Shown here one piece after another: positions 32,368-34,822 of a DNA stretch of 34,822 bases. The stretch is from the NCBI GenBank assembly GCA_019118645.1, contig DWYN01000136.1, positions 1-34,822 of the forward strand, written 5' to 3'. The position numbers were made by a program, and so were the translations under genes. The first letter of the stretch is position 1, and every line of letters begins with the position of its first letter. Under the pieces are notes generated by a model, which did no database searches, was not told the origin of the DNA, and saw nothing but the letters and a program-made list of their open reading frames with translations. The DNA is from Candidatus Blautia excrementipullorum. GTDB taxonomy: Bacteria; Bacillota; Clostridia; Lachnospirales; Lachnospiraceae.

Positions 32368-32856
32368 ATGCAGGCAAAAGGCAGAGTATTCAAATATGGA
32401 GACAATGTAGATACAGACGTGATCATTCCTGCCCGTTATCTGAATTCCTCAGATCCGGCGGAACTGGCTACACACTGTATGGAAGATATCGACAAAGAGT
32501 TTGTTCACAAAGTAAACAAAGGGGATATCATTGTGGCGGATAAGAACTTCGGCTGCGGATCCTCCAGAGAACATGCCCCCATCGCCATCAAAGCGGCCGG
32601 GGTAAGCTGCGTAATCGCGGAAACCTTTGCGAGAATTTTTTACAGAAATGCCATTAACATCGGACTTCCTATTATAGAGTGTCCTGAGGCAAGCAGGGGA
32701 ATCGAGGACGGCGACGAGGTGGAAGTGGACTTCGACACCGGAATGATTTACAACCGCACTAAGGGCACTGAGTTCAAAGGCCAGGCCTTCCCGGAATTTA
32801 TGCAGAAAATAATCCAGGCAGGCGGTCTGGTGAACTATATCAACAGTAAAAACTGA
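32368..32856 (+). CDS. leuD: 3-isopropylmalate dehydratase small subunit
   Basis: Swivelling substrate-specificity subunit that pairs with LeuC. 162 residues, LeuD2-type length. It opens with [22 protein letters not shown] and contains the hallmark [13 protein letters not shown]. The ATG at 32368 has AAGGAGGAG upstream; a longer ORF reading into leuC is not supported. leuB does not follow: the operon ends here at a terminator, next to the accessory TnpB-like locus. Confidence 0.96.
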
Positions 32857-32911
32857 TAGCGGCAGCAAAAACGAAATACCGGATTTTCCTCTGAAAAAAC
32901 GGAAAATCACA

Positions 32912-32970
32912 AATACCACAGGGAGCTGTTACCGGCCGAAGATTCCGGCGGAAGCAGCCCCCTGTATTTT
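32912..32970 (+). terminator. Terminator of leuCD
   Basis: A compound stem: AATAC with GTATT, ACAGGG with CCCTGT, GCTG with CAGC and an inner CCGG/CCGG pair, ending in a T-run (TATTTTTC). A smaller perfect hairpin (GATTTTCC 32882-32889 with GGAAAATC 32901-32908) precedes it. Confidence 0.75.
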
Positions 32971-33009
32971 TCTGCGGTTTTATATTTATAATAAGGAAAG
33001 AAAAAACTG

Positions 33010-33038
33010 ATTTCGTGAAGTATTCTGATTCACGAAAT
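33010..33038. repeat. Palindrome A upstream of the TnpB-like gene
   Basis: Perfect inverted repeat ATTTCGTGAA (33010-33019) / TTCACGAAAT (33029-33038) around a 9-bp centre. Its reverse complement matches palindrome B (33252-33280) across the arms and the centre (CAGAATAC), with two mismatches over about 27 bp. The 441-bp leuD-to-TnpB gap contains the leuCD terminator, these two palindromes and a promoter; I see no credible ORF in it. Confidence 0.8.
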
Positions 33039-33204
33039 TTATATAAAAAGAAAGACGGCTTAATGAACTTTTTAGAAATAATTGGGGGATATTTAGATGT
33101 GAAATTGAGAAATTTTCTTATTTTACATGCTGGAAAACCGGCAAATTTTGTCGGAAATATCAAATATGCGGTGAAAATTGCATGATTTAAGTCATATATG
33201 TGAC

Positions 33205-33233
33205 TTTACATTAATGAATTGCTATGCTAGAAT
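33205..33233 (+). promoter_or_regulatory. Promoter of the TnpB-like gene
   Basis: TTTACA (33205-33210), a 17-bp spacer and TAGAAT (33228-33233). An inverted repeat AAGTCA (33189-33194) / TGACTT (33201-33206) touches the -35 box and may be an operator. Confidence 0.62.
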
Positions 33234-33251
33234 GTTTTTGTTAAGATGCTG

Positions 33252-33280
33252 ATTTCGTGAAGCAGAATACTTTACGAAAA
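33252..33280. repeat. Palindrome B in the 5' UTR of the TnpB-like gene
   Basis: ATTTCGTGAA (33252-33261) and TTTACGAAAA (33271-33280) around GCAGAATAC. It pairs as RNA with one G-U pair in the 9-bp core. It is an inverted copy of palindrome A and lies just after the predicted start and 17 bp before the ATG. Confidence 0.78.
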
Positions 33281-33297
33281 GATACTGAGGTTTTCTG

Positions 33298-34506
33298 ATG
33301 GATAAGACAGCATATTACGCAGTGACAGTAAGAAAATTCAGTGTTCTTTCCAGACACAGAGGCCGGATGGAAAAAACGCAGGAGCTTTATAACGAGATTC
33401 TGGGATTTTATTACAGATTGTATCTGGATACCCTCCCGGAAACTGGCTCCGGATCGATGGAGACCATGCGGAGTCTGGAAAAAATGACGATTGTGGGAAG
33501 AAACCGGGAACCGGTACCCTATCCCCTTCCCTGGAAAAAGGTTCCGCTCTACTTTCGAAGAGCAGCCATCAACGGGGCGGTGGCAGCGGCCAGAAGCTAT
33601 CTTGCAAGAGATGCCCAGAAGGAAGAAAGCCGGAATTTTACAGAATCGGTAACTTTCTATAAAGGAATGTACCGGGATTTTTCGGAAAACGGGATATCCC
33701 TGAAACTCTGGGACGGAGATTCCTGGAAATGGACCCGTCTGAGACTGAGAGGAAACGAAGTACCGGAGGAGGGGCAGATGATGTCCCCGGCGCTGGTTCT
33801 GCGGGAGAAAAAGACAGAACTCCACATCCCATGGAAAACTCCTGTCAGTGACGGGAGAAATGCGAAAGAGCGCATGAAGGCAGGGGAGAACATCTGCTCT
33901 GCTGTATTCACAAACAGAGATGCATGCGTTGTGTGCTGCATTCTGGATTCCGACGGGAAAACGACGGACAGCCTGTTTTTGAAGGGCGGCACAGAGTATT
34001 CCCACCAATGCGGCCATTATCTGGAAAAACTGAAAAAATCACAGGCATCGAAGGGGGCAGGAAACAATCCCCGGGGAAATGCAAAATACTGGGAAAAACT
34101 GAAAAACATCAGCGACAATTACGCGCATCAGATCAGCCGTCAGGTGATCGACTACTGTAAAAAGAATCATGTCGGTATTCTTGTGCTGCCGTATTTTGAA
34201 CAAAACCACAGAAATATCATTATGCATTCGTCGGGAAGATATTCGCCTATCTATTTAAGTACATCTGTCCGGGAAAAGCTGAAATACAAGGCGTGGCAGG
34301 CGGGAATCGTGGTTCTGGAAGCACAACAGCATAAAATCAGTTCTGTATGCAGCATCTGCGGATCAGAGATCAGGCAGAGCGGCACCGAGTTTTTCTGTGA
34401 AAAGGGACACCGGGGGAACAGATACCTGAATACGGCCAGAAATCTGGGGCTGAAGTGCCTGAATGACTTTCAGAGCAAACAGAAGTCTGAGCATGAAAAT
34501 CGTTGA
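33298..34506 (+). CDS. TnpB-like (IS605 OrfB/Cas12-related) protein, apparently nuclease-dead
   Basis: A 402-residue intact ORF. The N-terminal half has TnpB-type recognition features (TVRKFSVLSRHRGRMEKTQE, FRRAAINGAVAAARSYLA, LKLWDGDSWKWTRLRLRG). The C-terminal RuvC-like part keeps the family skeleton but the catalytic acids look lost: Ala202 where GIDxG has Asp (ICSAVFTNRDA), Pro298 where Glu is expected (LVLPYFEQN), and Asn374/Tyr376 for the DxD of the last motif (NRYLNTARNL). The zinc knuckle keeps Cys351, Cys354 and Cys367, while the fourth ligand is absent or replaced by His371. It has its own promoter, with GAGG seven bases before the ATG. No TnpA or other transposase is nearby. Likely an exapted RNA-guided DNA-binding protein like TldR; a decaying transposon gene is the alternative. 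Alignment was by eye. Confidence 0.8.
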   Translation: MDKTAYYAVTVRKFSVLSRHRGRMEKTQELYNEILGFYYRLYLDTLPETGSGSMETMRSLEKMTIVGRNREPVPYPLPWKKVPLYFRRAAINGAVAAARSYLARDAQKEESRNFTESVTFYKGMYRDFSENGISLKLWDGDSWKWTRLRLRGNEVPEEGQMMSPALVLREKKTELHIPWKTPVSDGRNAKERMKAGENICSAVFTNRDACVVCCILDSDGKTTDSLFLKGGTEYSHQCGHYLEKLKKSQASKGAGNNPRGNAKYWEKLKNISDNYAHQISRQVIDYCKKNHVGILVLPYFEQNHRNIIMHSSGRYSPIYLSTSVREKLKYKAWQAGIVVLEAQQHKISSVCSICGSEIRQSGTEFFCEKGHRGNRYLNTARNLGLKCLNDFQSKQKSEHENR

Positions 34507-34605
34507 TGCTCCGACTGCTGCTTTGCGAGAGATAAAAGGATTTGCTACCACATAAATAGAAATATGCAAAACAGACAGGCCTAGAACAGATGGATTAAAA
34601 AATGA

Positions 34606-34633
34606 GAAAACGAGTGACTGAGTCACTGTTTTC
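34606..34633 (+). ncRNA. Stem-loop in the TnpB-like 3' region
   Basis: GAAAAC (34606-34611) pairs with GTTTTC (34628-34633), and inside, after one bulged G, AGTGA with TCACT around CTGAG. It lies about 100 bases after the stop codon and before the GC-rich RNA candidate, so it may be its 5' domain. Confidence 0.5.
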
Positions 34634-34655
34634 ATAGATTTCAGCGGGAAACTGC

Positions 34656-34763
34656 AAAAAGGGCAGAACCCATCGGGTTTTGCCTTTGGGTCTGAGCACC
34701 GCCCGCCGGAGTCCGCAAAGACCCCGGGAAGACAGCGGCTTTATGCTGCGGGAGTGCTTGAAG
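34656..34763 (+). ncRNA. GC-rich structured RNA candidate, possibly an omega/guide RNA scaffold
   Basis: In an AT-rich 316-bp gap after the TnpB-like gene, this stretch is markedly GC-rich and self-complementary. A 13-bp hairpin (AAAGG-G-CAGAACCC with GGGTTTTGCCTTT, loop ATC, 34658-34687) is followed by GGGTCT (34688-34693) pairing AGACCC (34719-34724). AGCAC (34695-34699), inside that loop, pairs GTGCT (34754-34758) outside it, a pseudoknot. CAGC/GCTG (34733-34748) forms a further hairpin. The structure ends in TTGAAG and the sequence becomes AT-rich again (from 34764), where a guide would lie in a TnpB-type RNA. No ORF. The rest of the gap to 34822 shows nothing clear. Confidence 0.55.
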
Positions 34764-34822
34764 TTATAAAAAGAAAAAGCCTTACGGAATCCGGATCCGG
34801 CAGATCAGGACAAAAGGCAAAG

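Follow-up and report, generated by a model that had tools for sequence, protein, structure and literature searches.

A putative RNA-dependent regulator derived from TnpB and heading phase-variable polysaccharide operons in Lachnospiraceae

What role is left for a TnpB-family protein that has lost the residues with which such proteins cut DNA? The question is raised by a 402-codon open reading frame (ORF) at positions 33298..34506 (plus strand) of contig DWYN01000136.1 (assembly GCA_019118645.1) from Candidatus Blautia excrementipullorum, the contig being analyzed here as a single stretch of 34,822 nucleotides (nt), termed the window. An earlier note, made from the sequence alone, had described an intact ORF at this place, in agreement with the ORF call, and had proposed that it encodes a lone, exapted RNA-guided repressor. 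Part of that proposal stands, in that the protein is nuclease-dead, is stably linked to non-transposon genes and is accompanied by an RNA in the guide-RNA position. The gene is not alone, since it heads a phase-variable operon, and the RNA, the inversion and the polysaccharide operon had been overlooked. The reading that we favor, and regard as reasonably probable on the basis of comparative sequence analysis, is that a nuclease-dead, domesticated TnpB combines with its own RNA into a ribonucleoprotein regulator heading phase-variable polysaccharide operons. In the following, L-numbers denote the loci or sequences compared and G-numbers the genomes, G000 being the source genome itself.

Catalytic residues and extent of the clade

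The 402-residue protein was matched by the Pfam model Cas12f1-like_TNB (E 3e-9, above that model's cut-off) and by the NCBIfam model guided_TnpB (E 5e-15, yet below the curated cut-off), and a sequence search of the PDB returned Cas12f/TnpB chains. An AlphaFold2 model built from ten sequences (mean predicted local distance difference test score 82.8, predicted template-modelling score 0.61) was matched in Foldseek to AsCas12f (8dzj; E 9e-16, template-modelling (TM) score 0.59), and also to OsCas12f, ISFba1 TnpB (8iaz) and ISDra2 TnpB (8h1j), the last being the comparison that had been suggested at the outset. Because the TM-scores are about 0.4-0.6 and the root-mean-square deviations are high, the domains fit known Cas12f/TnpB, but in no single rigid superposition. 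The TnpB/Cas12 scaffold ascribed to the protein is borne out by these searches. No CRISPR repeat array, as a type V-F (Cas12f) assignment would require, was found within 32850-34822, the only stretch scanned.

In an alignment of 36 core clade members, including the window's protein, with eight distant IS605 TnpBs, none of the three RuvC acids was kept in any of the 36, whereas all three were kept in all eight. The column of the first Asp (203) is occupied by Q, R, V, T, H, S or Y in the clade, that of the Glu (298) by P or A, and that of the last Asp (376) by Y, F, S, H, A or R, as opposed to D, E and D, respectively, in 8/8 of the distant TnpBs; a profile-profile alignment gave identical columns. 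In the window's protein these positions are V203, P298 and Y376. The loss of all three acids, P298 and Y376 had thus been read correctly, but the first Asp aligns with V203 rather than with A202, and N374 lies outside the catalytic column. The altered fourth zinc ligand noticed at the same time is genuine: the clade carries a CCCH zinc ribbon, in which C351, C354 and C367 are each present in 35/36 members and H371 in 34/36, and the Cys-to-His swap is clade-wide. The aligned IS200/IS605 TnpBs of the same genus (L016-L018 and L050-L054) are distant homologues, with 22-23% identity. They differ from the clade in keeping D-E-D, in the replacement of the zinc-ribbon cysteines (8/8), in having no match to the RNA model R1 described below and, where checked (L016, L050, L052 and L053), in a TnpA gene upstream. 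In G062 alone, 18 matches to the query were found.

Searches of 64 congeneric genomes (E 1e-3) gave matches to the dead TnpB in 20, of which 15 carry close-clade members and five distant matches only. Up to four or five copies were found per genome. A family-level draw produced matches at E 1e-20 in 8 of 299 genomes, two of these from the window's own genus, and an order-level draw of 344 genomes (match search only) added strong matches only within the family. In nine further members found in other genera the acids are likewise missing at every column that is present; the protein of G238 is acid-intact and falls in the distant group. The ORF is therefore one of a clade of Lachnospiraceae TnpB/Cas12f-like proteins from which all RuvC acids are missing, and the suspected loss throughout the clade holds for 36/36 core members.

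The clade is under purifying selection, as the intact frame had suggested: the ratio of nonsynonymous to synonymous substitution rates (dN/dS) was 0.057-0.127 across 12 clade pairs, dS being close to or beyond saturation in most of them. The reported absence of a transposase was also found to be general, no IS605 TnpA being present in 35/35 sequences carrying a core member. Phages gave no match to the dead TnpB, and plasmids gave four distant matches of 22-25% identity.

RNA, invertible promoter and polysaccharide operon

Directly 3' of the ORF, at 34614..34767 (plus strand), lies a structured RNA with the tail AAGTTAT, a candidate guide-RNA scaffold, which is matched by covariance model R1 at 104.9 bits (the window being among the 33 model sequences). 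For a four-helix structure across the 33 aligned copies, paired cells amount to 93.5%, versus 70.7% in shuffled alignments, and 19 of 22 pairs are changed on both sides, versus 13.4. The covariation score is 0.689, versus 0.255 when shuffled and at most 0.170 when slid, and the structure collapses when slid by one column; the helices were picked on the same alignment as was used for scoring, which favors the structure. R1 matched 33 places in 14 of the 64 congeneric genomes, 31 of them in the model, and each of the 33 follows a core dead-tnpB match on its 3' side at a distance of -9 to 356 nt, with none elsewhere. Held-out matches comprise L015, the second copy of L055, L038 and L039, together with 8 of 12 new loci from other genera. 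Only two of the 35 core protein matches lack the RNA, one being broken in two frames and the other located at a contig edge. TnpB genes and their guide RNAs are arranged in this way, paired one-to-one at the gene's 3' end. R1 gave no match in the eight acid-intact loci, nor in the acid-intact L144, and Rfam gave no gathering-level match across 20 loci, the window yielding chance-level matches only. A second, contig-cut RNA copy was seen at L135:8594-8705, ~0.9 kb past the first.

Upstream of the gene, two inverted copies of TTTCGTGAAG-8 nt-TTCACGAAA were found by site search with 213 nt between them. The left recombination site (33011..33038, plus strand) forms the left arm of the inverted repeat and the right site (33252..33279, plus strand) its right arm, with 26/28 positions complementary. 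The enclosed segment (33039..33251) contains a sigma-70-like promoter, TTTACA-17-TAGAAT (33205..33233, plus strand), which according to its hexamer score is directed toward the gene, i.e., the ON orientation in this assembly. No further such site was detected in the 3.43-Mb assembly with up to three mismatches allowed. Homologues of the segment are reversed in the relatives L065 and L068 (minus-strand blastn, 80%). Opposite orientations were also observed within single genomes (L064 versus L070, 97% over 325 nt; L060 versus L061, 82% over 311 nt) and between the orthologues L080 and L081 (91% over 1392 nt, recombinase included). The upstream segment is thus an invertible promoter switch, for which both orientations are seen in relatives and one assembly represents the window's own locus. 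The unusual palindromes recorded earlier are present, but their nature is that of inverted-repeat recombination sites around a promoter.

Inverted-repeat pairs precede the dead tnpB in 31 of the 36 loci. Within 900 nt, 23 loci score at least 17, and two (L056 and L084) score 13-14, in the upper range of the controls. Six further pairs (L074, L075, L077, L078, L080 and L081) appear only at a 3000-nt limit, since their repeats enclose a tyrosine recombinase gene. No pair was found for L033 and L059, both on short contigs, or for L082, L038 and the second copy of L055. Among 151 control windows, treated with the 900-nt limit and slightly laxer scoring, two scored at least 17, one of which proved to be another dead tnpB's own repeat. 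Inversion sizes across the clade are 141-395 nt or ~1.4 kb. Promoter direction, scored simply by hexamers, was toward the gene in eight of the 31 loci, away from it in 18, both ways in one and unclear in four. The source genome encodes two distant recombinase homologues elsewhere (40-41%), which are not linked to the sites.

Polysaccharide-gene clusters follow on the same strand, at most 6 kb downstream, in 34/36 loci, as opposed to 3/36 in which they lie upstream; the two exceptions are the window, owing to its contig end, and L083. The clusters were formed by single linkage, and for 10 of the 12 the type was taken from the Pfam assignment of a single representative; clusters 17 and 18 were typed by eye, and only L034 depends on them. 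The top Pfam assignments among the 99 downstream proteins were epimerases (19), Polysacc_synt_2 (16), RmlD (16), glycosyltransferases of group 1 (13) and group 2 (8), and UDP-glucose dehydrogenase (7). Among the 61 upstream proteins, phage integrase was commonest (7) and the remainder were mixed. The window's contig ends 55 nt past the RNA, just before the polysaccharide genes, and the gene looks isolated for this reason. In the closest relative, L067, which has the same leuC-leuD neighborhood, a glycosyltransferase and other sugar genes follow the RNA, so that the gene's supposed isolation after leuCD is due to the contig end. As read from these loci, the order of the module is inverton, dead tnpB, RNA and polysaccharide genes. 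In L055, a single polysaccharide region contains two dead-tnpB modules with RNAs, separated by 3.8 kb.

The source genome contains a second polysaccharide locus (L145:2640-3900; G000:C124), which adjoins CbiD and has a promoter of like type, a UDP-glucose dehydrogenase gene and the motif TTAGATAAGTTATAAATA, with no R1 RNA. At ~2752 a dead TnpB once present has left a short remnant, VFTNRDT followed by a stop. Together with a frame-broken copy in G056:C36, this relic indicates that dead-tnpB copies can be lost.

Mode of action and rival explanations

The dead TnpB probably serves as an RNA-dependent regulator, and we infer that its function is that of a regulatory ribonucleoprotein resembling TldRs, the described nuclease-dead TnpB homologues; this is the best reading of the module. 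A recombinase would turn the promoter toward the gene, and protein and RNA would then be made from the polysaccharide transcript, only when their own operon is switched on. The two would assemble like TnpB and its guide RNA and bind DNA, with no cutting. At polysaccharide loci the complex would modulate transcription, most likely repressing sibling loci and tuning its own, and few polysaccharides would be made at once.

Several observations weigh against such a regulator. L083 has no downstream polysaccharide cluster, and in G010 both of the two scored loci face in, hence promoter states are not strictly exclusive. Three of the 33 guides, picked for sequence complexity, were searched genome-wide. 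These variable 14-nt guides after AAGTTAT (L056, L073 and L058, in G016, G060 and G015, respectively) had exact matches to themselves only and were rejected; one-mismatch matches numbered 3, 0 and 5, versus 1, 2 and 0 for the reversed control, and all eight lay inside ORFs. Targeting of sibling loci was likewise rejected, since guide prefixes matched sibling upstream regions over a mean of 5.92 nt (60 pairs), compared with 5.79 nt for other genomes (1095 pairs).

The sequence following the RNA is A/T-rich and variable; in the window, the place where a guide would lie is an A-rich stretch (34768..34822, plus strand) that continues to the contig end and is identical to L067 over the stretch compared. 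The tail AAGTTAT is conserved among the 33 aligned RNAs, partly by construction because extraction required AAGT[TA][AT]T. It is also present in the held-out RNAs of L133, L134, L135 and L143, while variants such as AGTTAT or AGGTAT occur in the RNAs of the second L055 copy, G305, G079 and G237. A motif sharing AAGTTA with this tail, GATAAGTTA, precedes the gene within 700 nt in 12 of the 36 loci, mostly shortly past the right repeat. The pattern TNNGATAAGTTATA has 44 sites in 28 of the 64 genomes, versus 13 for the reversed pattern: 10 upstream of dead tnpB, one behind the RNA (in G038) and 33 elsewhere. Eighteen of the latter were examined, with TTAGAT sites preferred and hence as a non-random sample. 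Ten precede a sugar or polysaccharide gene, one is located just behind a sugar transferase gene, four are inside ORFs and three are others; L151 and L152 were judged by likeness to L147 and L148. In L147 and L151, from two genomes, this leader motif stands at ~3500 (minus strand), 42 nt before glmM, which is followed by glmS. R1 gave no match in 12 of the leader-motif loci.

A fixed guide is one way in which such sites might be used. The RNA tail AAGTTAT(AAA) would direct the dead TnpB, via a TTAGAT-like target-adjacent motif, to the TTAGAT-AAGTTATAAATA leaders of polysaccharide operons and glmM in the same genome, and any operon that is switched on would thus hold back all the others as well as itself, as mutual exclusion coupled to DNA inversion. 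RNA and motif begin to resemble each other where the closing stem ends, which is the expected start of a guide, and the RNA gene has other letters in place of the GAT preceding the motif heptamer, as would be needed to avoid self-targeting. We nevertheless consider this version of the scheme unlikely. The shared heptamer was spotted post hoc, the leader motif runs on past it, and G012, G025 and G029 carry the motif with no detected dead tnpB, which means that the motif is not kept by the dead TnpB alone.

The RNA might instead act in cis, as a leader element of the polysaccharide operon to which the dead TnpB would bind in order to control elongation, processing or translation, replacing antitermination of the LoaP, EAR or UpxY type. 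In Bacteroides, phase-variable capsule loci have an invertible promoter, begin with regulator genes (UpxY, a NusG paralogue, and UpxZ, its inhibitor) and occur several to a genome, and it is the slot of such a polysaccharide antiterminator gene that the dead tnpB occupies. The RNA also lies inside the operon, with the next gene only 14-100 nt past it in several loci, and NusG-like genes are found in some of the dead-tnpB polysaccharide operons. We judge the cis model doubtful all the same, as the RNA never occurs without dead tnpB and its tail is kept even where the next gene is 500-1600 nt away. Moreover, terminator-like hairpins between the RNA and the next gene were no commoner (2/33 loci) than in the reversed control (2/33), and there is thus nothing obvious to antiterminate. 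Binding beside the right recombination site, by which the complex would bias or block the recombinase, could account for the position of GATAAGTTA shortly after the right repeat in most of the 12 loci; it is very improbable, given that neither the window nor its nearest relatives have GATAAGTTA upstream and that the motif also occurs at polysaccharide genes lacking inverted repeats. Least credible, and already disfavored, is that a transposon gene is merely eroding after nuclease loss while hitch-hiking in polysaccharide loci. The L145 relic and the frame-broken copy speak for it in showing that copies can be lost, but the low dN/dS, the one-to-one pairing with a covarying RNA, the single consistent operon position and the lack of TnpA all speak against it.

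Relation to known systems and significance

The module and the capsule loci of Bacteroides share an invertible promoter, a regulator in first position and several loci per genome; the regulators there are UpxY and UpxZ, in contrast to a dead TnpB and an RNA here.

The TnpB fold, the lost RuvC acids, an RNA directly 3' of the ORF, the lack of a transposase and a stable link to host genes are common to TldRs and the dead TnpB (PMC13418256). For described TldRs, DNA binding has been demonstrated (PMC13418256). Their partners are flagellin or oppF, as opposed to polysaccharide operons here, and their guide is programmable (PMC13418256), whereas the present RNA has a conserved 3' tail and no guide-target pair was found. 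The closest published parallel is provided by the csrA-linked TldRs with Hin-inverted promoters. In Oscillibacter and Flavonifractor these are associated with the serine recombinase Hin, ~120-bp inversions, flagellin and CsrA, and predicted cross-targeting guides (PMC13418256). Common to both systems are a dead TnpB after an invertible promoter, gut Firmicutes as hosts, several loci per genome and genes for surface structures (PMC13418256). Hin, ~120 bp and flagellin are replaced here by tyrosine recombinases in some loci, inversions of 141-395 nt or ~1.4 kb and polysaccharide genes, and the RNA is a different one. The protein would work like a TldR but is kept apart from that group here, its guide-target pairing and DNA binding being putative. 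A literature search found no description of dead TnpBs with polysaccharide operons; the main TldR and TnpB surveys lay outside that search, and an earlier mention is therefore possible.

Dead TnpBs illustrate the taming of CRISPR-like RNA-guided proteins for use as regulators. In the present case, a tamed protein, a dedicated RNA and an inversion switch are built into the surface-polysaccharide operons of abundant gut bacteria. If this reading is true, RNA-guided regulation would be linked to phase variation of surface sugars and, should the fixed-guide form apply, in a manner unlike that of the known TldRs. How a cell that has several switchable polysaccharide loci orders their expression thereby becomes testable.
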